A stretch of DNA of 64,000 nucleotides from Isoetes taiwanensis (taxonomy: Eukaryota > Streptophyta > Lycopodiopsida > Isoetales > Isoetaceae): assembly GCA_021234155.1 (NCBI GenBank), contig JAJEKV010000083.1:4629250-4693249 (forward strand), in the 5' to 3' direction. Positions 2,463-64,000 of this stretch are shown here, one piece after another. The translations under genes were made by a program, and so were the position numbers. Every line of letters begins with the position of its first letter. Within the stretch, counting starts at the first letter, position 1. The notes under the pieces are model-generated. The model saw only the letters and a program-made list of their open reading frames with translations. It was not told the origin of the DNA and did no database searches.

Positions 2463-3263
2463 ATGGGTAACTTCAGGCGCAAGAATTATGCTGCAATAGC
2501 TTTGCAGTTGAATGAGACCATTAGCACCAGATACACTGGTAAGCAAGTGAAGAACAAGGTGGAATGTCTCGTGAAGAAATATAAAAAAGAGAAGGAAAAA
2601 GAATCTAGGACTGGCTCCACTCCAAGCAAGTGGGAATTCTTTGAGCAATTTGATGCTGTCCTTGGCGAATCATCAAAGGTAGTTGGTCTACCGGGTGGAT
2701 CAACGGAGACTGAGTTCAGGAGTGGCACCAAACGAAAAGCGGACGATATGAATCCTAAGGTGGCACAGGGTATTGCCAAAACCAAGAAATTTTCTCGTCC
2801 CATTTCTGTTGCTAATTCTCAGGCTCCAGTGCCTGAGTATGTCGTGGTACAACCACAAACATCCAGATCAACCCCTGTTTATGTAGATGATTGCGAGGAG
2901 CATGATGATGAAGAACCAGGCATTGAGGTAGACTCTCCTTCTGCGAAGCAACCTGTCAGCAAGCCTCTTGGCAAGGAGCAGAAGAGAAGTGCATCTAGTC
3001 TTCGTGGAAAGAAGACGAAGGCTAGGCGCCACGAAGAGGGCACCAAGGCAGCTGCCACCATCTTGGCTCAAGCCATGAAAGATGTCACTAATGTCCATAA
3101 GGAATTGAAGTTGATGGAACTTGCGCAGCGGACAGAGGCTGAGGATAGACGAGCAGAGGCACGTAGAGAATCTAAGGCTCGAAGGGAGGAAGCTATTAGA
3201 CGAAGAGAATTGTTAGAACTTGAGGCGTCCAAACGGAAGGAGGAACTTCAGTTGCAACTATAG
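2463..3263 (+). CDS. Myb/SANT (trihelix)-like DNA-binding protein of a Harbinger element
   Basis: This 266-residue ORF begins with a partial Myb/SANT-like domain (residues about 1-65): GNFRRKNYAAIA, then RYTGKQVKNKV, and later KWEFFEQFDAVLG. That order matches the trihelix partner protein of PIF/Harbinger transposons, which binds element ends and helps the transposase reach the nucleus. The middle (about 75-190) is acidic and basic low complexity. The C-terminal 70 residues are a charged, probably coiled-coil segment rich in Arg, Glu and Lys. The domain seems to start inside the first helix, so the true start may be an upstream exon; the ATG at 2463 is just the first in frame. A stop (TAG) follows LQLQL, although the downstream bases still look helical and Gln-rich, so the end may be premature. 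It is convergent with the transposase. Confidence 0.7.
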   Translation: MGNFRRKNYAAIALQLNETISTRYTGKQVKNKVECLVKKYKKEKEKESRTGSTPSKWEFFEQFDAVLGESSKVVGLPGGSTETEFRSGTKRKADDMNPKVAQGIAKTKKFSRPISVANSQAPVPEYVVVQPQTSRSTPVYVDDCEEHDDEEPGIEVDSPSAKQPVSKPLGKEQKRSASSLRGKKTKARRHEEGTKAAATILAQAMKDVTNVHKELKLMELAQRTEAEDRRAEARRESKARREEAIRRRELLELEASKRKEELQLQL

Positions 3264-3617: not shown

Positions 3618-4552
3618 TTAAATCAGATTCTGAGCTTGCATATGATTGAAAACAGTGTCCCTCAGCAGTTTTCCGTCTCTTCTTCGCGCCGTATCCAAAA
3701 CCACACATGTATCAAAGTATTCATCCTCATTTTCAATTTGTAACATGTTCTGAAGAACACAACAAGCAATAACTACCTTAGGCGCATGAGGCATTTTAAT
3801 TGGCATGTTGCATAAGATGTTCCAGCGACCCTTCAGTAGAGCAAAGCAATTCTTTTTCACTACCCTAGTTGTGACAAGTGTTTGGAGAATGGAATAGCAT
3901 CTGCAGGATCACTAAGTCTTTTCTTCTTGATCACTATCATATACTCTGATGCAGGATATCCGAAATCTGTAATTAAATAGGGTTGCACTCTTCTATCATG
4001 CAACACTCTTGAAGGTCCGCATAAAATATGCCTTCTTGACAACTTGCCAAATAATGATGATTTATAAAAATGATTTGTGTCATGCGCACCACCGGGAGCA
4101 TCACAGCAGACGTCCCAAAATATTAGTGAAGGATCACGCATGGCGACTTGCGCATAAATGTAGAAAAAATAATGTCTACTCCAATAATCTGCTGGTCCCC
4201 ATTTCCTTATTGGTGCTTTTTTGAAGGGAATGTGAGTGCCATCAATTGCACTAGCAATCTGTGGCATACCTGAAATGGATTCAAAATCATTTATAATGTT
4301 CTGCAGTCTATTCCCAAATGGAGTCCTAATGAAATCATGCCTAAGTTTCTCTGATAGTATATTGACAACAATTTTGGTATACTTATGCACTGTACTTGCT
4401 CCCATCCCATAAATTTCTGCGCAAATGAAACCCTTCTCGTTATGGGCCAATTGAAAAATTACAGCTGCTAGAGCCTTTACTTTTTCAATAGGTTCACGGA
4501 CCACGATAGATAGATCAGCCTGTATAATATGTGGCAGTACTAGTCTAAGCAA
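3618..4552 (-). pseudogene. PIF/Harbinger transposase (DDE_Tnp_4), frameshifted
   Basis: Two overlapping minus-strand frames (4552-3860 and 3860-3618) make one transposase split by a single frameshift near 3872. Recognisable landmarks in order are a helical N-terminal part (GMGASTVHKYTK), the first catalytic Asp in ASAIDGTHIPF, the second in WDVCCDAPGGAHDTNHF, DFGYPASEYM, then CFALLKGRWNIL and APKVVIACCVLQNM near the C-terminus. The family position usually written VVERAFG reads VVKKNCFA here, so the third acidic residue may be replaced by Lys; this depends on the alignment. The enzyme would cut and paste the element. With the frameshift it is unlikely to be active. It shares the element with the Myb-like ORF at 2463-3263. 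Confidence 0.85.
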
Positions 4553-26288: not shown

Positions 26289-29200
26289 TCAAAGATGATT
26301 GAGTTCCTTGCTTTCCATATCCTTCAGAGTAGAGAGAATCTGAACTAGAGGGGTAGAGGACAGGTGGGGAATTTGGAATTCCTCAGCAGCCAGCTCAAGA
26401 ACCCACTCAGCCCATAAACAATTCTTGAACAAGTGACTTTCATCTTTAGCTTCCTGTAAACATCTCTCACATAGGTTAGAGGCAGCCATGTTCAATCTAA
26501 ATCTTTTAGCATTGGTAGCTAAAGCCTTATGCCAAAGTTGCCACATAAAGGCCTTAATTTTGGGGTTAATAGGAGAGTTCCACATGAATTTTAGATTTGC
26601 CATACATCTCTCCTCAGTGATATCCCATTTGGTATGAATAGAGATGGTGTAGCTCCTTGTCAAAAATCTGTATGCATTTTTGACCCTGTAACCTGAGTTA
26701 CCATGAACATGCCATTGGGTTTCTTGGTTGTGCCATTCTCCTTCATCAAGGCAACTTCTTATGGCCTGGTAGAGTCTCTCATGATCTTCACCCATATCTG
26801 CAAGAACTGAATTTTGAAATTTTATAAATCCCACATCATTAAACAGATGATAAATGTGAGTGATGCCTCTTTCTGACCATTTTTTGCACTGAATAGGGAA
26901 GTGCATAGCCAAGCGTATGTCAGGGTTATTTAAAATAAGAGAGGGGTTCCAAAAGATTGTTTGGTCTTTAGAAAGGCCCTCCTTCCAAGAATACATCCTG
27001 CATACTGCCTTCCAGGCTCTAATCCATTTTTTAATGATTCCAGGAGTATTATTGGGCACCTTAAACTCAAAGAATAAACTGTCAGGGAGATGCATGTTCA
27101 CATTTCTCCACCCAAAGGGTTTACACTTGGCAAGGTAATGATTAATTAGCTCAGACACAGGATGGTTAATCTCATTGTGGCCAGCTCTATAAATGTATTT
27201 GGCTGCCAGGGCCAGCCCTTGTTTCTCAATATCCAGAACTCCAAGACCACCATGCTTCCTTTTCTTCATACACTCTTTCATGGAAACTGGAACCCAGGTT
27301 CTATTACTGCCCCCACTAGCAATAAATCTACCCAAAATGCCTTGGAGCTTAGATGTGACCCTTTTAGGAGCTAAAAGGATAGAAGACTGGTAGACATGAG
27401 AAGAAGAGATGACCGAGTTGGCTAAGATAGCTCTTCCATTTTTGGACAGATATTTACTGTTTAAAAGATCAGCCTTTCTATGGAACTTCTCAATAATGTC
27501 CCCCCAAAGATCACTAGCATTAGTCCTTAGGGCAAAAGGAATACCCAAGATTTTGGACTTAGTAATTGGAGAGAGATACTCACAGCCAAGGGTTTGAGCA
27601 GTCTGCTGCCCCTTTACCTGATTTCTTGCTATGAGCTTGGACTTGAGAGGGTTGATCTTACATCCCGAGCAGTTGCCGAAGTCTTGGAGAACAGTTTGAG
27701 TGTTTGTGATGGAGTTCTCTTTCATAGTGATAAAAAGAAAGGTGTCATCTGCAAAGTGAGCATTAAGGAAAAAGCATGCATCTTGATTACCAGGGAGTTT
27801 AAGTCCCACAATTCTCTTCTCCTGGTCAGCTTTTTTGAAAGCATAATTCAAGGCTTCCATAATTATAAGAAAAAGAAAAGGGGCAAGAGGACAACCTTGT
27901 TTTACACCTCTCTTTATCTCAAAGAAAGGGCTGCATTCCCTATTGATCAGAACCGAGGATCTTGAATTATAAAGGATGGCTTGAAAAATACTTATCACTT
28001 CTTGGGAGAACCCCATCTTTTGACAACATTTGAAGAGGAAGTTCCAGCTGACCATGTCAAAAGCCTTGGTGATATCCAGCTTGAGCAAGGCAATGTCCTG
28101 TTTAGTTTCTTTAGCCCAATGCATGCCAATGATAGCAGTGGCCACATTATCTAAAATGGACCTATCCTTTAGGTAAGCACTTTGAGTGTTGGAGATAGTA
28201 AGATCCAGAATAGGTTTCAGTCTAGATGCTATGGTAGCAGAGATGATTTTATAAATAACATTGGTGAGGGATATAGGTCTGAAATCAGAGAAAGTTTCAG
28301 GCTCGTCAATTTTGGGAATCAAGGAAATAAAGCTGGTATTGATTCTGCAGTCCAGATTCCTAAGAAGTAAGAACTCATTGCACACATTAGTAATATCATT
28401 TCCAATAATATTCCAAGTTTTTTTAAGAAATTCCACTGGGAGGCCATCAGGACCCGGAGTCTTACCATTTTCCATACCTGATACGTTTGCCCATAATTCT
28501 TCAATGGTAAAAGGAGCATTCACGCTTTCATTCTGCTCATCTTGGATAGATCTTTGAATCTGAATGAAGTTGTCAATATCCTCATTTATGGCAGTAGGAG
28601 AGGATCCCATTATTCTCATAAAGTGATCTGTAGCAGCCTGTTTCAGATCTTTGTCCTCAGAGATGGGATTGCCATTACACTATAGATCTGATTTCTCTTA
28701 GTTCTTCCTTTGGCCTTGATGAAAAAATACTTGGAGTTACTCCTCTCATCGTCCTTAAGTTCCCTGATTTTTGCTTTTAGCTGCCAACCTTTAGCAATTT
28801 TGAGTTCTTCTCTTTCAACTTGAATTTTTACATTCTCTTGCTGATCCAAGGGGGTTTGCTGGAGTTGAATTCTCAAATCCATAAGGTGCTGCTTTTCTTG
28901 ATTATAAATTTGCTTGCCCCAGACTTTGAGCCAGTTTTTTATATTTTTGGCAACTTTCACCCACCATTCCATCCATCCAAACTGATTTCTAGGTTTAGGA
29001 GTATTCCTATAAACCTGTTCAAACTCATGAATAAAAGTGGGCTGGTCAAGAAGAGAGACATTTAGCTTGAAGTATGATTTTATCTTTGCATTTGAAGTGT
29101 CCCCTCTTATTTCCAGCAACTGGGGAAAGTGATCAGAGATAGTATAGCCATTTAAATTTGAAACCCTGTCACATTGGTTCCAAAGATTCTCACTGACATA

Positions 29201-29875
29201 GAAACGGTCATGAATGCAGTGAATAGGGTCATCAATTCTCTGATTAAACCAGCTGAAAGTATTCGGTTGGGTTCTAACCAGTTTAAGATCATGCATGGAG
29301 ATAAGGTGCCCCCAAGAGTTCTGCTCTTGATTGAGGAGAGGTCTAAAATTAGTACTCCTCATAAAATCATGAGTGACCATGTTAAAGTCACCAGCAAGAA
29401 TGCAGTTATCATAAGGGATGTTAGCTAAGCTATTTCTAATTATATTCCACGTAGGACTTCTCTCACCAGGTTGATTATGAGCATAAATGTTAACAAAAGC
29501 AAACCTTTTGGTTCCGAGATCTCCATGGAGAATTTGCCATCTCCCACAATTGCCATGCATCATCTGAATGTTGGATATATTTAAACTGTTTTTCCAAGCT
29601 ATAGAGATACCTGCAGAACTATTATTTGCCCTAATAGCCCAGAGTCTAAAACTAGGAGGAAGGGTGTTAGCAATAAGTCTCTCAAAATCATCATCATGAA
29701 GCTTATGTTCCTGGAAAAAAATCATATCAGCATTAATGGAGGAAATACAAACCTTGAGCCTATCTCGTTTGACATTCGAATTAATACCTTGGAGATTCCA
29801 AGATACACATCTAAGGTTAATATCCATAAAAATCAGTTTTTTTTTGGACCCTTGAACTTCTCCTTGAGATTTCAA
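26289..29875 (-). pseudogene. L1-A ORF2: endonuclease and reverse transcriptase, one internal frameshift
   Basis: The first part (29875-28643; likely true start at 29827) is an AP-type endonuclease: CVSWNLQGINS, FFQEHKL, LAGDFNMV and SDHFPQL are its catalytic-loop landmarks. The second (28619-26289) is the RT: GPDGLPVEF, LISLIPKIDEP, QSAYLKDRS, LKLDITKAFDMVSW (motif A), GVKQGCPLAPFLF (motif B), and FADDTFLF in place of YADD (motif C). It ends in a zf-RVT-like region (CERCLQEAKDESHLFKNC). The two frames join around 28675-28680, where a 1-2 base indel shifts the phase. A further shift lies near 26290. The protein would nick target DNA and copy its own RNA there. Apart from these lesions the domain set is complete. 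Confidence 0.93.
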
Positions 29876-39181: not shown

Positions 39182-40066
39182 TTAATGCGCATCATATTCT
39201 TGAGAAAGAACAGCTCCAATAGCAAAACGCCGGACATCGACATGAACATGAAAGGGCTTGTCCCATTGAGGAGGAACAAGAACCGGGGCTCGAGTAAGCA
39301 AAAGCTTCAATTGTTGAAAGCAAAGATCCGCTCGGGAATTCCAAGCCCGTGGATTCATCACCGTGAGTTTATGAATGGGATCCGCAATGGTCATGCGAGT
39401 CCGTGGAATGAAGGTGGAGTAATAATTGACCTTACCCAGGAAAGAGCGTGTCTCCTTGATATTGGCTGGTGCTTGAGCCTTGAGCACACAACTGGTTTTG
39501 GCGAGATCCTGTGGGTGATACCGCTTTCTTCCGACAACGGGCCTAACAGAACACCAGAGGTGACGCAAAAGGTGCATTTCTCAGGATTGAGACTAATGCA
39601 GGACTCATCACATTTCTAGAAGACGAGTTCCAATTTATCCAAATGGTCAGCCATGGAACTGTAGGCAGAGAAGTCATCTTGAAAAATTTGTAAGAAGGGA
39701 TTTTCCTTCATGAAATCTTGAAAAACTGAGAGCATGATGCGTTGAAACGTTGATGGAGAATTTGATAATCCAAAAGGAACCACCTTGTAGGCAAAAGTGC
39801 CCCAACGGGGTGGTGAAAGTGGTCTTGAGTTGATCAGATTCTTTGATTGATATCTGATTGTAGCCAGAAAAATCATCCATGAAGGAGTACATCTCATGGC
39901 CAGCGACCTCTTCCAGAACCTGGTCTGTGAAGGGAAGTGGAAAATGATCCCGCTCCGTGGCCTGATTGAGTTTTTGGTAGTCCACGCAGACGCGGATCTT
40001 ACCATTGTGTTTGAGTGCAATGACGATGGGGCTCACCCATTCAGAATGTTTGACCTCATAGATCAA
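39182..40066 (-). pseudogene. Gypsy reverse transcriptase, frameshifted
   Basis: The frame 40066-39674 reads SEWVSPIVIALKHNGKIRVCVDYQKLNQAT, then MYSFMDDFSGYNQI, where the first catalytic Asp is in the usual F.D..SGY motif. Parallel frame 40020-39616 continues with TPPRWGTFAYKVVPFGLSN and FQDDFSAYS, the position of the usual YLDD/YIDD box, here with F-Q-D-D. Frame 39577-39182 carries the RT end and connection (IKETRSFLGKVNYYSTFIP and WDKPFHVHVDVRRFAIGAVLSQ). At least two frameshifts break it, so it is inactive. Confidence 0.88.
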
Positions 40067-40879
40067 ACCTGCAGCAAGGAGTTTGTCAATTTCGGCCTTG
40101 ACGCGATCCGCGGTAATTAGGGTTGAGCCGGTGCATCGCTGCTAAACCGGGCGTCGCGTCGATTTGGTAGGAATGGTGCGTTCCCCAAGCTTTTGTTGAT
40201 GCCCCGAAGATCTCTCGTAGCTCCGTGCTTAAAATGTTTGAACTTTTGAAGAGCTTGGCGGCCTGATACGATAAGGGGCCGGAAGATTTGCAGCAATGCG
40301 GACAGGCTGATTGTTGCCCACGTCCACGATCTCGACTTCAAGAGTCTGAATATGAGGTAGCACTTCTGTGTCCTGGACAATATGAGCAGGCGGTTGAAGC
40401 ATAACAGGATGCGTGGCACTCTGCGTGGTGAAAAAGAGAGGTTGCTGAGTTCCATCAAGCAGAGGTTGCTTCATGACAGCGTGGACATCTACAGGACCTC
40501 ATCTGAAAAGTGATCAACCCGTTGAATTCGATTGCAAGGAGCCAGGTAGGGGTCAAGCAAAGCCGCCACAGCCTGGTCCTGATCAAGAGTCATTTCACCC
40601 CAAGGATCAAAGATATTGGGTAGGATGACAGAGGCGCATTCGCGGTGGAGCCTGAACTTGATAGATATTCTGAGCTTCCTCAGAATCTGTGTCGGAGAGA
40701 GAGGGTTCAGCATGTTCAACAGAAATGATCTTGCCTGTTTCCAAGTTCATGGTGGCATTGAGGTGACCATCAGTGATGACTAAGCCCGATCCGCGGGCCC
40801 AAGAATGGATACTCTTGGCCTGGCGGAGAAAAGGTCGGCCAACCAACATTTCATAATCGCCGGGATCTTCCCCAGCCTT

Positions 40880-41632
40880 TCAAACTCCAAATTCCAAAGG
40901 GAATCGGAGGTCACCAATGTTGATGTGAAGAAGAGGCGTGACGCCTTGAGGTCTCGTGATATGGCCATTAGCCAATTTGATGTCATATGGGGCACGATAA
41001 AGTTCTTTGATGCCCATTTGTTTGCGGAGTTTATCCGTAATGAGATTAACTGCGCTACCTCTGTCTATTTGAACATGGTTGACTTGCTGATTACCCACCG
41101 TGGCATGGACCGTGGGTGTAGAGGTAGCAACAGCCCCAACTAAAACAGTCGGGAGTGGTAACTGGTCCTTGAGAGCAGGACAGAGTTTCAAAATGGTTGC
41201 CAAGCTTAAAGGAATTTTGATCTTGGCTAGCTCCTCTTGGAGTTCTAGAGGCACATGAGAAAAAGGATCTGCTGGTTCCACGGGTGCTGGAGTGCGTGGT
41301 AATGAAGCAGCAACTTCTTTGAGTAAGTCAACCTCTGCAGCAATATTGGGATATGTCTGAGAGCGTGGAGGTTGAGATGTGGAAGGTGTATCTTGGCGTT
41401 GTTGAGCTCTGGTGGTGGCATGAACATTTGCCAACGTTCGGCCTTCAGCAGCTTGCATGAGGTTCAAAATGCTTTGGCGAACTTTAGGCATGACATGCGG
41501 CATGAGTTTCTCAAGTCGGTGCAAAGTGAACCTTTTGTCTTCGTCATGAGGAATGGTGTCGACCGCAAAAGCGGGTTGCGTGCCATTAGGGATAATGGTT
41601 AAGGGTGGCGGCCCCGGTTTGGCGGAAACCAA
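40880..41632 (-). pseudogene. Gypsy gag-protease region with aspartic-protease-like domain
   Basis: This 250-residue frame has a Pro-rich N-terminal half, then VNHVQIDRGSAVNLITDKL followed by KLANGHITRPQGV and LGDLRFPLEF-like text. That matches retropepsin-like domains of gypsy elements. The catalytic triplet, normally D-S/T-G, reads D-R-G here, which would be expected to inactivate the enzyme unless the true frame differs. The reading frame continues in shifted form towards 40489, where VGRPFLRQAKSI marks the flap/C-terminal side. Confidence 0.75.
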
Positions 41633-41794
41633 ACCAACCCAATTTGATGGCTGAACCGGAGGATTTAAGGCACGAAAAATCTCTTCCCCGTGCTTGTTGA
41701 TCCAGTGCAGTTGATTTGCGGGAGCTGGTTGATAAGCGTGATTCCGAGGCGCTCTTGGTGGCTTCTTAGAACTGGTCTCGGGCCTTGTTTGCCA

Positions 41795-43326
41795 TTAGCA
41801 ATCGAGTTGGTAAGCCGTGAGGCGGACCGATGTGGTCTGATTGGTGCCGGGGAAAGCCGCACACGAACTTGTGGAAGTTGAGGACACGCCGGGGTGGTAT
41901 GACCCCATTCTTGGCAGGTGGTAACACTGAAGCTTTAGAAGGATCAAAAGGAGGGCGTGTGTTGGGTCCCGTTGTTGCTCTGCTGCTGATAGAGTTGATT
42001 CGGTTGCTTTGAAGTGGTGGGCTGGCGATAGTGCGATTGTTCTTTGAGGTGTTGTTTGCACTTGATAAACGAGTTTGTTGCGGAACGGTGTAGGATGATG
42101 AGTGCGAGTGCACTCTTCCGTGGGCATGATTGCACATGTTGCATCTTTTTGCAATGAGGCGGGCCATGGGTTGAGTTGCACTCATTAGCCAAGTGGCCTT
42201 GGTATTTCTGAGATATGGCACCAGATCGGACTCCGGCTGTGGATTGGCGTGTTGAGGCCGGACAGTAGCCTTTGGAACCATGACCAGTGGAATGAAAGGG
42301 AGCTCTTGAAGAGCCACGCCAATCGGAGGAAACATTGATCGAAAGTGATTGACAAGGTCGATAGCCTGCTCCAAAGTCTTGGGGCCTTGGTATTCATCAT
42401 GAGTCGAATAGGCGGAGGAAGTCCTTGGAGAAACCGGACCAAAAACTGGCTCGTGTTGGGTACTCCTTGAGCTTGCTGGAGCGTAATATGAAGACGATCA
42501 AAAATCCCCAAGGACTCCGTGGGCTCTTGTTGAAGGTCATTGAGTTGTTTGAGATGAAGTTGATCATCATCCGTGGTCCCATAGTGAGAAAAAAGCGGTT
42601 CTCATTTCGACCAATCTTGTTTCAATGGCTTTTGTTGGACATGAGCCATTGATGAGGAGAGCCACCGGGTGGTGGAAAAGATGTGGAATTTCAGTTGAGG
42701 TTGCGCATGACCATTTAGGATAGCTAGAGCCTCAAATTCTTCCATGTGGGCCTCGAGCACTTTGGTCTAAGGGTTTGCCTTCGTGTTGCCAAAGGTGGGA
42801 TAAGTCGGTTTGAGTCACGAGAAGGTAGATGTGAAAGTGCTTGGCTGGACAGAAACGAGATAGTGAGGATATTGAGGTGGGAGTTGGAGGTGGCATGGTG
42901 CCCGAGAAGGACCTTGATGAAGGGGTGACTAGCGGTTGAGGAACCCAAGGTGCCCGAGCATTGGTTTTGAGGTCCGTGGTTGTAAACAGAAGAGCAAAGT
43001 GGGGAAATGTAGGGAAAGGAAATTCTCGGTAGGCTTAAAGAGACGCGTGGATATCCCTCGCCACCCGGGGAGATGATGGTTGTGAAGGAAGAGGCGATGG
43101 CCTGAAGAGTGATGGATGTAGGCATGTTCGGGGTATGAAAGTAAGGTTGAGAAGGTTGAGCCCGATAGGGCTCCCGATAGTGATGAGGTGACGAGGCCGT
43201 GAGCAATGTTTGCACGCTTTGGGGCGGGAACCGGGACGACAGACACGAGGGGTGGTGGCGCCGGACGAGCCCTAGACCGGCGGTGGCCTCCCTCAATGTC
43301 ATAAGCAGATCCATACATGTCGCCAA
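41795..43326 (-). pseudogene. Gypsy gag region, heavily frameshifted
   Basis: Several overlapping minus-strand frames with Pro-, His- and Ser-rich composition lie upstream of the protease. A candidate start is at 43318 (MYGSAYDIEGGHRRSRAR). A Cys/His cluster at about 42130-42190 (CNSTHGPPHCKKMQHVQSC) sits where the gag nucleocapsid zinc knuckle would be, though its spacing is not a clean CCHC. Gag would form the particle that packages the RNA. No frame is intact. Confidence 0.6.
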
Positions 43327-43710
43327 TCAGCTTCCTCGATGATGACGCCCAAGCGGATGCCGCCCCGAAAAAGGAGTTCTTCCGGTGAAGTTTCTACGGT
43401 TTATGGCGACAAAAAGAAAGTAGGATTGAATCGCACCCGGCAGCGGCGACGGTGTTTGGGGTCCGGGTTCGAAACTCTCGAAGACCCTCAGTGGAGGACC
43501 CGTGGATCTAACAGAGAGTCCGGGGACTATGTCACGCGGGATTTGCAAGAAGAGAACAAGAAGAAGAAAACGTAACAAAGAAAAAACGAGAGGAAAATGA
43601 TAAGCTTCCTTGATATCAATGATGAACATACATGAGCTCTAATGAGAGAGAAGATCGAAAAGAGACAAGACTCAAAACTCATCTCGCCTTCATGTGCTAG
43701 CTCTACTCAT

Positions 43711-43723
43711 ATATATAGTACAA
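43711..43723 (-). promoter_or_regulatory. TATA-like box in the probable gypsy 5' LTR
   Basis: On the minus strand the run TACTATATATATGAGTAG lies about 390 bases upstream of the gag start candidate at 43318, where an LTR promoter would be expected. Confidence 0.35.
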
Positions 43724-44339
43724 TGGCCTTGGGCCCAATATAGACACTCGACCGATCTCGGTCGCCGACTCACGGAAGGAGGCCTGATTCTGAGGAATCT
43801 TTGGCGGTGCCTCTTGAAGTGCCTAGAATCACGCCGACGTGGCCGCTGGGCGGTGACGGGCCATCACTTGTCCGAAGCGCCTCTTGATAGGCTTTGACTG
43901 CGTGGTCTGCTGCTTGGTCTTCTGCTGGGCCTTTGATGACTGACCCGTGGCTGACTGTGGATCCTTGAGCTTGACCTGGTCCGTCGTGTGCATGAATAGT
44001 CCTGAACCAGGAGGCACAGGACTAACACTTGGCGCTTCTAAAGTTCCAGCTTGTTCAACTAAATAACTACCTGTTTAAGATTAAAGTCGAGTAAACTTGG
44101 TTATTGAGCAAGCATGAATATGAAAGCCTTTCCAAACCCAAGTTACATATAAGACAGTATACATAAACCAAAACACTGCCAAATTCAGTGTCATATCAAA
44201 TCAGATTACTGCAAAACAGCAAAGTCTTGCATGAACAAAGTCTTGCAACCTAAATCCTTGTCATATTTCAGAGATTACATACCTGATATCAAATAAGAAT
44301 ACCAGATATCAAATACAAGAATCAAAACACAATGATATT

Positions 44340-56743: not shown

Positions 56744-56929
56744 TAACTTCTTCTCTGCGGAATATAAATGAGGGTGGAGAAGGCATGTTTTCGGCGAAAT
56801 AAACGAGATAGATCTTCACCGCATATGCACCACCAGAGCTGGGTACATAACTAATTAGCTGTGCACACATAGGCAAAATGACATGATCAACCAGAAAGAA
56901 AGAAAGAAAGAAAAGAAAAGAAAAAAAAA

Positions 56930-57554
56930 AACCCCAGTCCACACTAGCATAAGCCAAGCCTACTAGCCATGACATCTATTGAGGTCAATCCCTACAATAG
57001 TATTATCGGCCCATACTTAGGAAATTAATCCCTGATGACATAATGTCCTATGAAACAAATACTCAGAAACCATATACAAGCCTTCATAAATTACTTTAGT
57101 ACATATGAAACCTATATTCCATATCACCAGTCCTTACATCATTCCTTATTTACTAAAGTCAAACAAACTGTCAGCCTGTACAGTCATACCATTATTACCA
57201 TATCCTAATAGATATAGTCATTATAGAGATCATGTATCTGTTGTATTTAATATTCATTATCTTATCCTATTAAGCCAAAGCTACAAACATTTATTTTCAT
57301 GAACTCTTCAAAACTCATTCTCACTTTAGGCTTATCAATACCTTCACAAACTAAGGCCTCAACTTTAGCCATCTATTAATTCTCACTAGATCATATATCA
57401 AAAAGAACAACCTTTCAAAATTAATTTTATCAGTCATGCATTATATTTCAACATGTTCAGCATACTCTTCTGTTATTCATACCTCATTCATACATACAAA
57501 AATGAGTATATACATTCCACCAAGTGCTGTCATAGTAGTATTAAAAAATAAGAT
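56930..57554. repeat. Direct repeat flanking the Penelope-like element, left copy
   Basis: From about 56930 to at least 57554 the sequence matches 63376-64000 with only a handful of differences (for example one extra base near 63487 and a few substitutions). The offset is 6445-6446 bp. The match probably continues past 57554 but the partner runs off the window. On the element strand this is the 3' copy. It adjoins an A-rich tract on its outer side (56895-56931). Confidence 0.93.
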
Positions 57555-57559
57555 GAGTA

Positions 57560-59400
57560 TATTCACTCCAAAAATTGTTGCCACAGTAACAGCTGTCATA
57601 CTTTCATAAACAAAATTCCATATAAGCCTTAACCATAAAACTGCCTTGGGTATTGTTATCCTGCTTTCACATTTAGATTATATAAAGGAATGCTTCACAA
57701 AACATTAATTTCATATCATAGATACTGTCTATCAGTCATTAAAGGACCAGTATTAAACCATACTATAAACTGCATATTTAGTTACGAGTTTAGTAGATCT
57801 TCCCATTTCGCTTCTTCATGTATTGGCCAACTTCAGTGCATTCATTTAACTCAGTTTAACCGTAAATATATCATCATTCTTCCATCCACTCCAGAGCTTG
57901 CAAGTAAAAAGACATCAATAAGAGGAGAAACCCGTACCTGCAGCCACAACACAACATTAGCATGATAATGGTAATGAGTGAGGGGCCAAAAGGTACATTA
58001 GGTTTCTCAGCTCATCGCTGGTTACCTATTGATACCTTTTTACCCCTGGCTCATTCATTTCAGGAAGAATTAAACTCTAAAATGTATGCTTATCATAATA
58101 AGACTTCCATATTTAAAGCTTCAAGCTTAAAATAAGACTTCCATATTTAAAGCTTCAAGCTTAAAATTAGTTTCTATGGTGTATTTACACATACCAACAG
58201 CATAGTTCTAGCAAAAAATAGCAGAATCTATTTATTCCAACCTGGTAGTCTTCGTAGTCATACTCAAGATCATCATCTTGCGTGCTCGTGGGGACACCCG
58301 GGGAATCATTTGCACCCCGCTTATTGCCAAGATGTTTGAAGTTTTCCCCGCCTTCTATTACCATGATTTTGGTTACGCATCCAAGGGCGTTTTCGCCTAT
58401 ATTGCCCTTTGCCTTCCATCTCCGATTATCCGGTTCGGTGGTGTTCAAGCGTTACTCAAATTACGCATTAAGCCATTCTTCCCCAAGCACTGAATCACTA
58501 TCAGAGCTCCATGGATTTCGTCGAATCAAATTCCCTCCAAATTACCTCGTCCATCTTTATATGGCTTTTACCTAAACTACCTTAAAGGTCTCTATGGATC
58601 ACGCCTAAATGTGTTCTTATCTTATCATAAATGTAGCACGAATCAACCGCCACGCCACCAAAGTCTTACACAAAATCCTTATGCCTATTTGTAGATTTTT
58701 GGAATGGAATGATTTCTCAAAACGTCCGACCCATATGCCCTCGGTTGGTAAAATCGTTACTGCTGCCAAAGATCTAGTTCGTGGTCTTATCCGATTCTCG
58801 TTTCGGTCCCATCCGTAGCCAAGGTCGAGCTTCATTCGAGCCGCCATCATTGTGCTATCAAAAGCCATTACCCTAAAACCTAAAAGGGTTAAATATCCAA
58901 AGGATATATGGCCTTGGTTAATTTGTATTCTTTATATTCAACCCTAAGTCAAATACCACTTAAACAAATGGTATACTCAGCCAGATATATGTCCAATGTC
59001 ATTTAAATCCTAGGTCAATTAAATTCCATGGTTTTCAACGGACATTTAAAAACCTAGCAACATGTTTCAATTTAATACTACCATCTTATCTTGTAGCTAT
59101 ATCCCCTTCATTGTTCATATGATTATTCAATCATTATATGAAGGTGAAGACCCTTCGTAATCTAAAGCTCCCTGTTCATAACCATGCTACTAACCATGCT
59201 ACTGGTCACAACAAGATCATTATTAAAATAGAAAAAAAATCCTACCACCAACCGTAGGATAAGTTTGGCCCGAATTTTAAAGCAGTAAAAGCAGAGAGGG
59301 TATGGACCCCTGCCATTACAGCCGGGGTCCAACCCTTATCCTATATAATTTAACCCATTTCTGATCCAAGGATACAATTGCAATAGGGACATAAATAAAT
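57560..59400. other. 3' part of the Penelope-like unit, no gene recognised
   Basis: On the element strand (minus) the RT stop is followed by this stretch. ORFs at 58868-58617 and 58448-58185 have no recognised domain, and no GIY-YIG motif was found. The end of the RT ORF reads ACAGGTACATGA, which contains a possible splice donor, so a further exon here cannot be excluded. Confidence 0.4.
58098..58165 (+). repeat. 34-bp tandem duplication
   Basis: AATAAGACTTCCATATTTAA plus AGCTTCAAGCTTAA occurs twice in direct succession, offset 34 bp, inside the Penelope-like unit. Confidence 0.92.
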
Positions 59401-61461
59401 TCATGTACCTGTAAATATCTCCCGTATCAGCACGTTTTTGTCAAAATTCAGACCTGGGAAAGCATTGTTGCTGATATATCTCGTAATCTTTTTAATCATC
59501 CCATTTTCATCGAAGCCATTGGTTCTGAAATTACTGATCAATCCCTTAATGTCAGTAGCAGCAGCTTTAATAGCACAGGTGTTAACATACATGTAAGGAC
59601 ATATCTGTGATATAATCACATTTCTGGCCTGTAGATAGGGCCTACAACTGTCAGCATGCACAAATTTAATAGCCCGGAAGGGTAGCACGTCTCTCTTGTC
59701 GTACCTTGTAGTTCTGTATACTCCATTAGTGCTACTAACAATCTCAATAGCCAGATTAAGGAAATTAGCAGCTACGCCTTGTCGCCTTTCATCCTTATTA
59801 CCATCATCAAAAATTGTCTCTTCCTTGATTCCCAATTGATTCATATCATATATGCAGTATTTGTCTTTGGTTAAGCATCCTGTATTAACCAAAAATTCTC
59901 TAATCGTTGGACAGTTAATCACCATAAGGTCATCAATGTATCTATATGCATACTTGAATGTTTCAATTTCCCTATATCTCCCATTTTCTCCTAATTTCTT
60001 AATGAAGCTGACTTCAAACCAGGCCAGATAGAGATTGCACCAACTAGGGCTACATGAAAGTCCCATGGGTATTCCACTGATTTGCTGCCATATTCTACCA
60101 CCCATAGCAATAAAGCAGTTGGATAGTAGCCAGTGATTAGCCGTGATGAACATCTCTATTTCCATTTTTATCCAACATTTACCCTTAGGTTCCACTTTGG
60201 ACCACTTCATGACAAAATTATCACTGCTCCTTTTAAACCATAATTCATTAAAGTGCTGTCTACTTTTATTCCATTTCCATGCTGCCTTGATCACCAATTC
60301 AATGATATTACATATTCCGTTTTCCCCTTTTAAAGGTATGTTTTCATAACACTTGGTTATGTCTGCAACGAAAATCTCATGTATCTTAGGCGGGAGATTA
60401 ATAACCACATCATAAATGGATTTAACCACCCAACATGTACTTACTCTGCCAGGTAACATCAAATGAATGCTAGCACCAATCATTTTAGCTATGGCAGGCC
60501 AATTATCCAAGATGTTATTAAGTCCAGCAGTAACTATTTGTGAAATCTCGGTGTAAATGGAATTATGGGTATTAGTAATCCATCTGTAATCTTTCTTATG
60601 TGCCTTAAATACTCCCAATAAATAAGGTAGTTTCTCAGATTCAAAACCCCAGTATCCAATAATTTTTTGTATGTCATTTTTGACTGAAATCTGCACTTCC
60701 TCATATGATCTGAATATGCTTTGGAAATCATGGCTGTTTAGTCTTTCCATGGCCTTTTCCCTAATGTGTCTCGGACATATGAAAGATGGGTTATTGGTAG
60801 CTTTGTCTACCCCAGAAATATAGAAGTTACCCACCAGCCATTCGATGTTATTTATGACATTGGTGTCCATTAGAGGAAACTTTTTGGTATTCTCCATCTT
60901 AATTGCAATGCCAATTCTGCATTTAGCAATATCAACCACTCTTTCCTTAAAGACATCCATCTCTCCTTCTGTTATATCAGGGTATGTAAATCTATGTGCC
61001 ACAAAAAAGGCCTCGCAGACATTAGTCATTTCCACAATGAATTCCTTAATTCTTAGAATTCTGTCAGGTATGTGGTTAAGTCCTTTTTTGAATAGACCCC
61101 TAAGCATTTTGCTTTTGATTAGCGTGAGTTTAGTGGTCCGAACATGTCCAATATCCTTATCAATGAAGGCTGCTAAATTAGGATTGCTACACGGGCAAAC
61201 CGGTTCACATTCTTGTGCAAATACACAGAACGGTTTGTAGAAAATATCCCTTAGGTTCTCAATGTATTTCCAACCAAACATAGTATTGTTCATCATATCT
61301 TGTCCCATTTCCCCAAAACACTCAACTGCTACTTTGAGAAAAATCCTGGGTAGACAAATTTGATCCTGAACCCTAGACAGAAATCTGCAATGCACTATTC
61401 TTGCATTGTTCTTAGGTTTTTCATCCACTAGAAAAAACCTTCCCTGGCCATCCTTAACCAT
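59401..61461 (-). CDS. Penelope-like reverse transcriptase (ORF2)
   Basis: An intact 686-residue ORF. Residues 1-240 are N-terminal to the RT core and contain CPCSNPNLAAFIDKDIGHVRTT (about 89-110), then LRGLFKKGLNHIPDR (120-134; compare the ...KGLNF.P motif of Penelope-like proteins) and SGVDKATNNPSFICPRH (216-232). RT motifs follow: LPYLLGVFKAHKKDYRWITN (278-297), motif A FVADITKCYENIPL (Asp 367), motif B ISGIPMGLSCSPSW (461-474), motif C YRYIDDLMVIN (Asp 510-511), then FLNLAIEI (567-574). A thumb-like C-terminus holds RYDKRDVLPFRAIKF. No LTR-type RNase H, integrase or GIY-YIG domain is seen. Both catalytic Asp sites are present, so it could be functional. The ATG at 61461 lies just after a predicted 3' splice site. 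Confidence 0.85.
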   Translation of the reverse strand: MVKDGQGRFFLVDEKPKNNARIVHCRFLSRVQDQICLPRIFLKVAVECFGEMGQDMMNNTMFGWKYIENLRDIFYKPFCVFAQECEPVCPCSNPNLAAFIDKDIGHVRTTKLTLIKSKMLRGLFKKGLNHIPDRILRIKEFIVEMTNVCEAFFVAHRFTYPDITEGEMDVFKERVVDIAKCRIGIAIKMENTKKFPLMDTNVINNIEWLVGNFYISGVDKATNNPSFICPRHIREKAMERLNSHDFQSIFRSYEEVQISVKNDIQKIIGYWGFESEKLPYLLGVFKAHKKDYRWITNTHNSIYTEISQIVTAGLNNILDNWPAIAKMIGASIHLMLPGRVSTCWVVKSIYDVVINLPPKIHEIFVADITKCYENIPLKGENGICNIIELVIKAAWKWNKSRQHFNELWFKRSSDNFVMKWSKVEPKGKCWIKMEIEMFITANHWLLSNCFIAMGGRIWQQISGIPMGLSCSPSWCNLYLAWFEVSFIKKLGENGRYREIETFKYAYRYIDDLMVINCPTIREFLVNTGCLTKDKYCIYDMNQLGIKEETIFDDGNKDERRQGVAANFLNLAIEIVSSTNGVYRTTRYDKRDVLPFRAIKFVHADSCRPYLQARNVIISQICPYMYVNTCAIKAAATDIKGLISNFRTNGFDENGMIKKITRYISNNAFPGLNFDKNVLIREIFTGT

Positions 61462-61473
61462 ATGTTTATTAAT

Positions 61474-61690
61474 CTGCAGTTATAAAAATCAACCATTTAT
61501 TAGTTAACTAACCCTTACAGTAACCAGCAAGTCTGGGTGATCATTTAGCCATCATTAGGCATCAGGATGTAAATTTAATGGGCCGCGTGGCAAGTATTTG
61601 AGCAATAATTTTGAGCTATACACTATAGCCATATTCAGACTCATATATTAAATAATTGCATTTAAACTTTTGTAAAGCATGAAAGCCTAC
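61474..61690 (-). other. Predicted 217-nt intron in the Penelope-like element
   Basis: On the minus strand a donor (AATGAG/GTAGGC) sits 6 bases after the ORF1 stop. An acceptor preceded by pyrimidines (TTTTTATAACTGCAG/ATTAAT) sits 12 bases before the RT ATG. Removing it puts ORF1 and the RT in the same frame. It is a prediction without RNA support. Confidence 0.5.
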
Positions 61691-61696
61691 CTCATT

Positions 61697-62881
61697 TTAA
61701 CTTGATGTATACTTCAGTTCCTCTCCAGCCACACCAGAGTACTTCCTTGTACTGTTACCCAAGTCTTTGGTTGCTGAGTGCCCCACAGGTACTTGTGTCC
61801 CAATGCATTCTATAGATGTACTCTCTGAGCCTCCTGGACTGTCAGTCCCTGGTTTTTTGGTGATCCTTGGTGGCCTGATCACCATGTTAAATTGGTTGCT
61901 GGATGTGGATGTTGTTCTTCCACTAGTCAGTCTGCTACTGCTGCTGCTAGCAGCCACCCTATTATCTTTAATAAAGGAGATAGGTTTGATAGTCTTCTCG
62001 CAGATGTCAATCATCTTGCATCGAGTCAGGTTGATCTTCAGATCAGCCCATGGATCCTCTGCCAGCTTCAATGTCATATGTATCAGACTTTCCCTAATTT
62101 CAAGGTAGGAGATAAAAGCCATGATAGTTGTCTTTAATGGGCCTTTGAGAAAACTCCTAAAACTGACCATTTGTGCAGCAGGAGAAATATCAGGATATAT
62201 ACTGTCCAAGTTGTTGAGCATGTACCAGACAGCATGATCCAACCATGTCATATTGTCACCACATGCATTCTTCTTATTCTTTTTCTTGCCCCTATCATCA
62301 CAAAGACATTTGATGTATGGACACATAGTCCTCCAGAATCTTTTGCAATAAAAGTCATCTCTAACCACATTGGGATATGCCATATGTCCCTTCTGGCTGA
62401 TATACATGTATGGACTTTTGCTACACTTCTTATCAAAGAACCTAGTGTCAATTGAGCATTTAACTTCTTCTTTATTGACAAATTTCTCCATTCTCAATGC
62501 AGCATTACAAGCAGCAGTTACCTGATCTTTGGTAAGTCCACCAAGTAGAATCCATGTCTCTCTGTTGATGGGTGCCAGCGCTCCGAAATTTTTAGTTCTC
62601 CATATAGCTTGGTTGCATAGCACTGCATGATTTTCCACCAACCTCTCTGGAATAATAGGAAAGTTTAAACAGTTGTTGAGTGTAAAATCAAACTCACTAT
62701 TATCCTCCACTGCAGTCTTATTTTTGGCATTTAACTCTGCCTTGTCCTGTTCAGACAGTAATGAATCAAAGGGATCATCTTCATTGTCAGATTCATTGAT
62801 CTGTACACATTCCACAGCTCTCTCCTCTTTCCTAAGATTGTTAGCAATTTCCAGAGCCTTGAGTCCAATCTTATACTTCAT
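61697..62881 (-). CDS. ORF1 of the Penelope-like element, unrecognised protein (main part)
   Basis: A 394-residue frame from ATG 62881. It opens with a short basic helix and an acidic segment (SDNEDDPFDSLLSEQD), then a globular middle (RETWILLGGLTKDQV). A Cys-rich basic region follows (FYCKRFWRTMCPYIKCLCDD, then GKKKNKKNACG). A helical region with WLDHAVWYMLNNLDSIYPD precedes a Ser/Thr-rich, probably disordered tail. I recognise no domain. The Cys-rich basic patch might bind nucleic acid, but that is inference. It is in the same frame as the upstream piece 63229-62906, separated by one TAG, and ends in TAA just before the predicted intron. ORF1-type companions exist in some Penelope-like elements. 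Confidence 0.6.
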   Translation of the reverse strand: MKYKIGLKALEIANNLRKEERAVECVQINESDNEDDPFDSLLSEQDKAELNAKNKTAVEDNSEFDFTLNNCLNFPIIPERLVENHAVLCNQAIWRTKNFGALAPINRETWILLGGLTKDQVTAACNAALRMEKFVNKEEVKCSIDTRFFDKKCSKSPYMYISQKGHMAYPNVVRDDFYCKRFWRTMCPYIKCLCDDRGKKKNKKNACGDNMTWLDHAVWYMLNNLDSIYPDISPAAQMVSFRSFLKGPLKTTIMAFISYLEIRESLIHMTLKLAEDPWADLKINLTRCKMIDICEKTIKPISFIKDNRVAASSSSSRLTSGRTTSTSSNQFNMVIRPPRITKKPGTDSPGGSESTSIECIGTQVPVGHSATKDLGNSTRKYSGVAGEELKYTSS

Positions 62882-62905
62882 TTTGCAATTATCTTCCTCA
62901 AGTGT

Positions 62906-63229
62906 CTACTGATATATCATGTCAGGCAGACTGCTGTACAAGTCATCAATGACTGTTACAATCTTTTCCACTTCCCCACCAGCTTTGTTAATGGCCGGGA
63001 AAGCCGCCATCCATTGATTGAAACCCATATGTAAAATAGCAGAATACATATCAGGTTTTCTCGCCATTTCTTTTTGAATGATATATTCATGTGCCTTAAC
63101 GTCCCTAATGCAGCATAAAAGGCACTGCACTGCATAGCTGGGTATCTCCTTCTTAAAGTATCCATACCCGAGTTGTGACAGTTCATTATTCCATTTTGGT
63201 AGCATCAACTCATGCACTGCTACCCTATC
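62906..63229 (-). CDS. ORF1 of the Penelope-like element, upstream exon (ends in TAG)
   Basis: The open frame (DRVAVHELMLPKWNNEL onward, about 107 residues to DMIYQ) has no ATG of its own at the 5' side. It starts at a good 3' splice site (TACTGTTATTTCAG/GATAGG), so it looks like an internal exon. It ends with TAG at 62906-62908; eight codons later comes the ATG of the 394-residue ORF in the same phase. No domain is recognised. The TAG is either a nonsense mutation (CAG to TAG would fit) or a readthrough codon. Confidence 0.55.
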   Translation of the reverse strand, partial: DRVAVHELMLPKWNNELSQLGYGYFKKEIPSYAVQCLLCCIRDVKAHEYIIQKEMARKPDMYSAILHMGFNQWMAAFPAINKAGGEVEKIVTVIDDLYSSLPDMIYQ

Positions 63230-63375
63230 CTGAAATAACAGTAAGCACACTAATGAGTTTATATGATTATCACATTAGTCCCATCAAAGTATATCTGCTT
63301 ATCATGTCATTCTAAGTACTTGGTTCATAGCCATCAATGACCCTGGTAAAACCAGAGACCCGAAGTTCCTAAAAA

Positions 63376-64000
63376 AACCCAGTCCACACTAGCATAAGCC
63401 AAGCCTACTAGCCATGACATCTATTGAGGTCAATCCCTACAATAGTATTATCGGCCCATACTTAGGAAATTAATCCCTGATGACATTGATGTCCTATGAA
63501 ACAAATGCTCAGAAACCATATACAAGCCTTCATAAATTACTTTAGTACATATGAAACCTATATTCCATATCACCAGTCCTTACATCATTCCTTATTTACT
63601 AAAGTCAAACAAACTGTCAGCCTGTACAGTCATACCATTATTACCATATCCTAATAGATATAGTCATTATAGAGATCATGTATCTGTTGTATTTAATATT
63701 CATTATCTTATCCTATTAAGCCAAAGCTACAAACATTTATTTTCATGAACTCTTCAAAACTCATTCTCACTTTAGGCTTATCAATACCTTCACAAACTAA
63801 GGCCTCAACTTTAGCCATCTATTAATTCTCACTAGATCATATATCAAAAAGAACAGCCTTTCAAAATTAATTTTATCAGTCATGCATTATATTTCAACAT
63901 GTTCAGCATACTCTTCTGTTATTCATACCTCATTCATACATACAAAAATGAGTATATACATTCCACCAAGTGCTGTCATAGTAGTATTAAAAAATAAGAT
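63376..64000. repeat. Direct repeat flanking the Penelope-like element, right copy (runs off window)
   Basis: Partner of 56930-57554. On the element strand it is the 5' copy. It begins after 'aagttcctaaaaaaa', where the left copy is preceded by an A-rich run, so both start at an A stretch followed by CCCAGTCCACACTAGC. Confidence 0.93.

Follow-up and report, generated by a model that had tools for sequence, protein, structure and literature searches.

An intact telomerase-type reverse transcriptase family in the lycophyte Isoetes taiwanensis, probably belonging to an endonuclease-lacking Penelope-like retroelement with poly(T)-tract insertion ends

A stretch of 64,000 nucleotides from the genome of Isoetes taiwanensis (assembly GCA_021234155.1, contig JAJEKV010000083.1, positions 4,629,250 to 4,693,249; hereafter the window) raises the question of which kind of reverse transcriptase (RT), and which kind of mobile element, is encoded by an open reading frame (ORF) of 686 amino acids found on its minus strand at positions 59401-61461. 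A previous reading of the letters alone (the sequence-only reading) had regarded this ORF as the intact RT of a Penelope-like element (PLE). The analysis described here revealed that the ORF is part of a retroelement of ~8.7 kb, and we consider it probable that it encodes the RT of a mobile, endonuclease-lacking PLE-like retroelement of the telomerase RT (TERT) lineage, which would insert at poly(T)/poly(A) tracts through the annealing of its ends.

The first part of the question, whether the ORF encodes a genuine enzyme, has a clear answer. The sequence-only reading had described an intact frame with the core RT motifs, both catalytic aspartate sites and the segments KGLN.IP, DKA.NN..F.C and YDKR...PF, all of which were borne out by an alignment of 19 RT copies (the 18 others being 51-88% identical to the window copy), where K126-G127-L128..I131-P132, D219-K220-A221.N223-N224..F227.C229, the catalytic D367 (ADITKCYE) and D510-D511 (YIDD), and D588-K589-R590..L593-P594-F595 are invariant or nearly so. 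Pfam RVT_1 was matched by all 19 members at E <= 0.1, the window copy alone reaching 27.1 bits, just below the gathering cut-off of 29.6. Moreover, comparison with its nearest relative (L002) gave a rate of amino-acid changes (dN) of 0.064 against a rate of silent changes (dS) of 0.70, a dN/dS ratio of ~0.09, and the pair L004-L005 gave 0.054 and 0.81, dS being saturated or nearly so in the other six of the eight pairs computed. Silent changes thus far exceed amino-acid changes, a codon pattern which indicates that the ORF is not a product of chance and that purifying selection has kept the RT functional, either now or until recently.

Two whole-genome protein searches revealed at least 105 distinct RT loci in I. 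taiwanensis, numbers that are lower bounds since about 65 candidates were scored of 4,730 and of 4,887, respectively. At least 95% of the length is kept in 90 of these loci, 72 of them without stops, a share of intact copies that is biased upward because the scored copies were the best-matching ones. This is therefore a native, high-copy plant family, and an origin in contaminating animal DNA, which the sequence-only reading had contemplated, is ruled out. Beyond this genome, neither the 80 pattern matches in viral contigs nor the 25 in a collection of genome contigs could be confirmed as relatives, although the peptide patterns were narrow and do not imply absence.

Regarding the class of the enzyme, a Foldseek search of the PDB with the predicted RT fold gave TERT structures as the top 11 matches and as all seven matches at E <= 1e-3, and no other class reached E <= 0.001. 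In this line, the VIA comparison gave a Z score of 11.3 for TERT 6zd1 (root-mean-square deviation (rmsd) 5.3, 275 aligned) versus 8.3 for a group II intron RT (rmsd 5.5, 164 aligned), 7.8 for LINE-1 and 7.2 for R2. For human TERT, the best row (Z 11.1, rmsd 6.8, 352 aligned) covered chain residues 327 to 1050, starting in what we take to be the RNA-binding domain region and reaching the C-terminal part. By sequence, the single window RT had no match in the PDB, and the sole matches of the RT profile, family B DNA polymerases at E >= 0.24, were judged to be chance. The profile matched the window's own L1 RT at chance level only (hhalign), the BFVD offered no viral structural match at E <= 0.001, and PHROGs and PADLOC returned only weak generic RT matches. 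The modelled fold supports the proposal of the sequence-only reading that the RT groups with telomerase/PLE-type enzymes and not with those of L1, copia or gypsy elements. A common ancestry of PLEs and TERT is stated in sections of PMC5718144.

To which element does this RT belong? For its anatomy, 17 loci (L011-L027) were cut out at 8-10 kb, and in all of them the coding region, an additional ORF (ORF1) followed by the RT, lies between long direct repeats. The window copy, entirely on the minus strand and listed from its 5' to its 3' end, comprises the following features:

63371..64000 (minus): part inside the window of the 5' long direct repeat, which extends to G000:C1093:4694905
59240..63370 (minus): internal region (abbreviated INT) enclosed by the direct repeats
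63311..63370 (minus): 5' end of INT, AGGAACTTC plus a CTGGT/ACCAG hairpin directly after the T7 of the repeat
61697..63229 (minus): ORF1 exon (exon 2), with predicted start and, in this copy, one in-frame stop at 62906-62908
59401..61473 (minus): RT exon (exon 3), with the 686-aa ORF from the ATG at 61461; the exon is predicted to begin behind the CAG at 61474-61476
59232..59258 (minus): 3' end motif of INT, CCTACGGTTGGTGGTAGGA plus T8 at the INT-repeat junction
56926..59239 (minus): 3' long direct repeat (pseudo-LTR, for pseudo-long terminal repeat), 95.2% identical to the 5' copy
58242..58535 (minus): copy of an acidic exon 1 in the 3' repeat, start approximate, ending in CAG/GT, phase 0
57894..58046 (minus): conserved structured segment in the 3' repeat, a hairpin AAAAGG..CCUUUU with inner stems
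56921..56931 (minus): 3' insertion end, a run of 11 T's with a pyrimidine-rich target behind it

The basic unit can be described as T8-long repeat-T7-internal region, and elements occur either as repeat-INT-repeat or as head-to-tail arrays. From 5' to 3', T8 is followed by a repeat carrying the acidic exon 1 and the structured segment, then by T7, by INT with ORF1 and the RT, and by the second repeat. In the six loci with both repeat boundaries inside the cut (L011, L012, L018, L019, L020 and L023), the repeat measures ~2.0-2.6 kb and the internal region ~4.1-4.4 kb. The main repeat blocks of one element are 93.9-99.7% identical in the 17 loci, L024 showing a nested arrangement with an additional block at 90.0%; between the nearest pair of elements, L011 and L012, the repeats are only 72-77% identical over aligned blocks of ~1.1 kb. 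INT starts with AGNNACTTC and a small hairpin in the six loci that were folded, and ends with a CCTACGG-like..GGNGGTAGG motif plus T6-8, a loose pattern present in 16 of the 17 loci (L023 has a variant). A strict version of this end pattern occurs 238+230 times in the genome, against 0+0 for the control. In L021 the downstream repeat continues into a next internal region, so this copy is part of a tandem.

How such units reach new sites is suggested by their ends. All 11 of the 5' insertion ends measured (six of the 17 loci were not) fall in runs of 10-36 T's, and all eight 3' ends measured (nine were not) in runs of 11-25, compared with only 6-8 T's at the INT-repeat junctions of 16 loci. Runs of this length are not background, as the whole window contains only seven T runs and six A runs of 10 or more. 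Twenty additional hairpin loci, 12 of them not scorable, gave eight recognisable repeat ends, two entering INT with T8 and six entering the flank, with runs of 19, 21, 14, 12 and 11 T's plus a decayed T6-C-T5. No target-site duplication beyond the T's was seen in the printed ends of the six loci with both ends measured. As a separate observation, the host T tract of L012 is flanked by an inverted repeat (CCACGCCCTAA.. / ..AAGGGCGTGG).

The repeats also contain a conserved segment of ~150 nt, found at 32 places across the 17 loci. Its copies in L014-L017 are ~87-89% identical to that of the window element, compared with 66-67% identity for the RTs of these loci. In an alignment of 17 rows, one per locus, 86.9% of the cells of its hairpin are paired, versus 34-47% when the pairing is slid, and 19 cells have changed on both sides compared with a shuffled mean of 6.1 (0 of 500 shuffles reaching that number). 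The covariation score of 0.188 likewise exceeds the shuffled value of 0.126 (0 of 500), with the caveat that related sequences can exceed shuffles by themselves. Altogether, the alignment gives fair support for the inner stems and weaker support for the outer ones. An alternative fold, in which GUACC pairs with a downstream GGUAC, is 95.3% paired, mostly through near-invariant pairs, and may represent a switch or a pseudoknot.

The core motif of the hairpin occurs 1141+1211 = 2,352 times in the genome (control 0+0), and among the first 100 of these places, 28 of 29 neighbours less than 12 kb apart are on the same strand, with 18 spacings of 2.5-3.3 kb, six of 6.2-7.4 kb and five others. Locus L033 is a head-to-tail array of units of ~2,793 bp, 97.6-97.7% alike, which by blastn shares with the full elements the hairpin, the start of INT at the repeat and the end of INT, without any match to the RT. 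Since an RT-less array keeps precisely these three parts, they are likely to be the cis signals of the element.

The coding part appears to be interrupted by introns. The RT exon of all 17 loci is preceded by an in-frame CAG, a predicted 3' splice site, which lies four codons ahead of residue 1 in 16 loci and two codons ahead in L021; the frame upstream of this CAG is not conserved. As residue 1 is a methionine in only three of the 17 loci, the ATG at 61461 is probably not the true start of the RT. Exon 1 ends in CAG/GT, phase 0, in 14 of the 17 loci, no such end being found in L020, L022 and L023; the first search was partly circular, as it required an acidic tail ending in Q, and a search without this demand gave phase 0 in all 10 loci found, with CAGGT in no other phase. 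ORF1 begins after an AG, also in phase 0, in L015, L016 and L020 (it is not clear in L021), and a GT 5' splice site lies at most 7 nt after its stop in the seven copies displayed. These predicted sites are most simply read as alternative splicing, with ORF1 and the RT exon as the two possible partners of exon 1, where the copy of exon 1 in use is expected to be the one in the 5' repeat, beyond the window. ORF1 itself reaches ~510 aa in intact copies, with no known domain by Pfam (10 members), no PDB match by sequence and a predicted fold (predicted local distance difference test score, pLDDT, of 39) that is unusable. Within the predicted intron 1 there is also a conserved GCTAAT..GGCTGCAG/GTAC, which resembles a splice acceptor with a donor immediately behind it (positions 1508-1661 of L011 as oriented, and equivalents).

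A telomerase-type RT, tandem units with pseudo-LTRs and retained introns are regarded as marks of PLEs in passages of PMC11167929 and PMC3846280, and the Isoetes element shows all three, the last as predicted spliceosomal introns. The endonuclease of canonical PLEs is a different matter. None of the 19 RT members and 10 ORF1 members scanned with Pfam showed a GIY-YIG domain, nor was any of 121 genome matches to GIY-YIG (150 of 263 candidates scored) within 39 kb of 65 RT loci. Four of these 121 (L034-L037) encode a small GIY-YIG ORF with no RT within 3.4-3.6 kb, and thus no partner, and no hairpin by the hidden Markov model of the segment at E <= 10. Many of the GIY-YIG matches are similar small open frames, of 118-144 aa in the four loci read, and an upstream ORF (GYN...KLMS.(L/M)M.(L/I)YEH) is common, by eye, to L034 and L036; these frames form a repeat family of their own, with no RT in the sequence inspected. 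The Pfam scan, which covered ORF1 and the RT, likewise found no LINE endonuclease of the APE or REL type and no domain of a protease, RNase H or integrase. Tandem telomere repeats, searched for as two or more TTTAGGG/CCCTAAA, were present in none of the 17 loci.

These elements suggest a working model for mobility. Transcription would start in the repeat, and exon 1 would be joined in phase 0 either to ORF1 or, leaving ORF1 out, directly to the RT exon, with the unspliced RNA serving as template. The RT would hold this RNA by the conserved hairpin, through an N-terminal part resembling the telomerase RNA-binding domain (TRBD). The U tract at the 3' end of the RNA, following CUGGG at the end of the repeat or the CCUACGG..GGUAGG hairpin at the end of INT, would then anneal to an A tract that a nick or break has made accessible and whose 3' OH would prime cDNA synthesis, and pairing of the terminal A8 of the cDNA (copied from T8) with T's belonging to this tract would join the other end. 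As no endonuclease was found, the element would depend on existing nicks or breaks in homopolymer tracts, its own included, which would generate the arrays. The splicing, the template strand and the priming are all steps that we infer from the arrangement of the sequence.

Several results weigh against this proposal. The AlphaFold model of the RT is of middling quality (pLDDT 62.1, predicted template modelling score 0.54), the RT profile matches Isoetes TERT through a short motif-B segment only (E 0.0019, probability 14%), and the TRBD exon of Isoetes TERT aligns with the profile at chance level only. In the hairpin, just three pairs show changes on both sides, as against a shuffled mean of 2.5 (246 of 500), and there are 15 further pair types, compared with a shuffled mean of 16.3 (495 of 500). 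Regarding the ends, the 5' T runs of L019 and L026 are preceded, by eye, by the repeat end of another unit, and these long runs may be the sum of two element tracts, while the 5' run of L020 has only 10 T's. The hammerhead of Rfam was absent at gathering score from seven loci (L011-L017), with no match at E <= 2 in L011 nor at E <= 1 in six loci, and Rfam revealed no other ribozyme in the loci scanned. (Rfam matches to HgcG, MIR5048, two long non-coding RNAs and snR11 were rejected as below gathering score.) Finally, both the T tracts and the close identity of the two repeats are also expected under other mechanisms.

One of these would start from an antisense RNA with a poly(A) end. Its A tail would be copied into the sense-strand T8 at the 5' end, and reverse transcription, primed from a genomic T run, would be carried out either by the element's own RT or by the host L1 machinery acting in trans. 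The T tracts would fit an antisense RNA with A8 at its end just as well, and such a template would account for the retention of introns more simply, an idea discussed for PLEs in parts of PMC3846280. The T runs at the 5' end are also the most variable ones (10-36), as would be expected for an RNA tail, and an L1 with RT and endonuclease-like ORFs lies in the same window, at 26289-29875. Nevertheless, the element itself contains T6-8 at the INT-repeat junctions of 16 loci, a foldable and conserved CCTACGG..GGTAGG motif precedes it on the sense strand, and the strong purifying selection on the RT is unlike that of a pure passenger. We therefore rate this mechanism as unlikely, if far from negligible.

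It also seems improbable that the element is a plain member of the endonuclease-lacking PLEs of Selaginella, which we take to be those called Coprina-type, and hence nothing new. Such PLEs have been reported from the lycophyte Selaginella moellendorffii in sections of PMC9033089 and PMC12477314, and the Isoetes element equally lacks an endonuclease domain by Pfam. The Selaginella elements are, however, described as telomere-associated, in contrast with the 17 Isoetes loci, whose insertions lie in T tracts and which carry ORF1 and repeats of at least 2 kb.

A long terminal repeat (LTR) mechanism, with true LTRs, tRNA or self priming, strand transfer and an exchanged TERT-type RT, would account for repeats that are far more alike within one element than between L011 and L012. 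We consider it very improbable in view of the negative Pfam result for protease, RNase H and integrase in ORF1 and the RT, the T-tract ends instead of TG..CA, the lack of target-site duplication in six loci and the existence of head-to-tail arrays. The many intact ORFs (72 of at least 105 loci) and an ORF1 without known domain might finally recall a family of domesticated host genes or a virus that became endogenised, a scarcely credible reading of repeat-bounded units with T-tract insertions, tandem arrays and RT-less derivatives, for which no viral structural match at E <= 0.001 and, with narrow peptide patterns, no confirmed relative in viral contigs were obtained.

Back to the PLE-like reading, how does the element compare with known systems? 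Hammerhead motifs are common in the pseudo-LTRs of PLEs, although not universal. Without GIY-YIG, hammerhead or telomere repeats, the Isoetes element is neither a canonical endonuclease-bearing PLE nor a telomere-associated endonuclease-lacking one, and we file it as a PLE-like lineage of its own, set apart from known PLEs by their descriptions. The sequence-only reading was thus correct about the PLE traits and has to be amended in that the ORF is one exon of a larger element, probably not starting at its ATG, and not part of a canonical PLE. With Penelope/Poseidon elements, such as Poseidon of Anolis as described in portions of PMC11167929, it shares a telomerase-like RT, tandem or partial-tandem pseudo-LTRs and a preference for AT-rich targets; it differs from them in the absence of a detected GIY-YIG or hammerhead, in its repeats of ~2.0-2.6 kb, its second ORF, its predicted introns starting inside the repeat and its T-tract ends. 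Athena, Coprina and the Selaginella elements also have an RT without associated endonuclease, and a further principle in common would be priming from a simple DNA sequence able to pair with the 3' end of the RNA; compared by description, the Isoetes element differs from this group in its lack of telomere repeats (17 loci) and its poly(T)/poly(A) target. Pseudo-LTRs, retained introns and pseudo-LTR-bounded units mobilised in trans are also features of the group formed by bdelloid Penelope families (passages of PMC3846280) and Terminons (sections of PMC5718144 and PMC12477314), the latter with accessory ORFs; unlike the Isoetes element, these have short pseudo-LTRs (~200 bp), the bdelloid families an endonuclease and the Terminons a telomeric location. 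As for TERT itself, it is the nearest solved fold, whereas the Isoetes RT is mobile and multi-copy, and its sequence similarity to Isoetes TERT amounts to one RT motif.

The remaining observations concern the surroundings. The L1-type LINE of the window, on the minus strand, carries an RT with zf-RVT (776 aa) and the endonuclease-like ORF (410 aa, by eye) upstream. An ORF resembling a PIF/Harbinger transposase, by eye, is found at 3860-4552 and a SANT/Myb-like ORF at 2463-3263, and the GC-rich stretch (~50%) at 40001-44000, with a retropepsin-like ORF at 40880-41632, is probably a decayed Gypsy element, also by eye. Elsewhere in the genome there are two LFY genes, at G000:C907:50543582 and C1059:8323478, plus many LFY-like fragments (28 matches). 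In agreement with Isoetes as host, one LFY exon resembles PDB entry 4bhk (the moss Physcomitrium) more than 2vy1 (Arabidopsis), and the rbcL gene appears to be of land-plant type.

PLEs are described as patchy in plants in parts of PMC9033089, and the word Penelope is absent from the main texts of the genome papers of I. taiwanensis (PMC8566536) and I. sinensis (PMC10541799). No paper on Penelope elements with poly-T insertion was found, and a description under another name is possible. Going one step further, we tentatively raise the possibility of a separate major lineage of endonuclease-free telomerase-type retroelements, with long repeats, an accessory ORF1, alternative splicing and two-ended annealing into T tracts, in which the RT would hold the repeat RNA as TERT holds telomerase RNA and RT-less satellites would spread as tandem arrays. 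Similar RT motifs occur in a large invertebrate RT family; taken only as a lead, this would allow for an ancient lineage that spans kingdoms.

With the conserved hairpin and the RT-less arrays at hand, the cis requirements of such elements become directly testable, and a PLE-like family would give a name to part of the repeats of the Isoetes genome. If true, telomerase-type retroelements would have a wider range than so far known, with a large PLE-like family in a lycophyte, many of its copies intact, and an endonuclease-free insertion into poly(T) away from telomeres would naturally connect telomerase-style end priming with ordinary retrotransposition.

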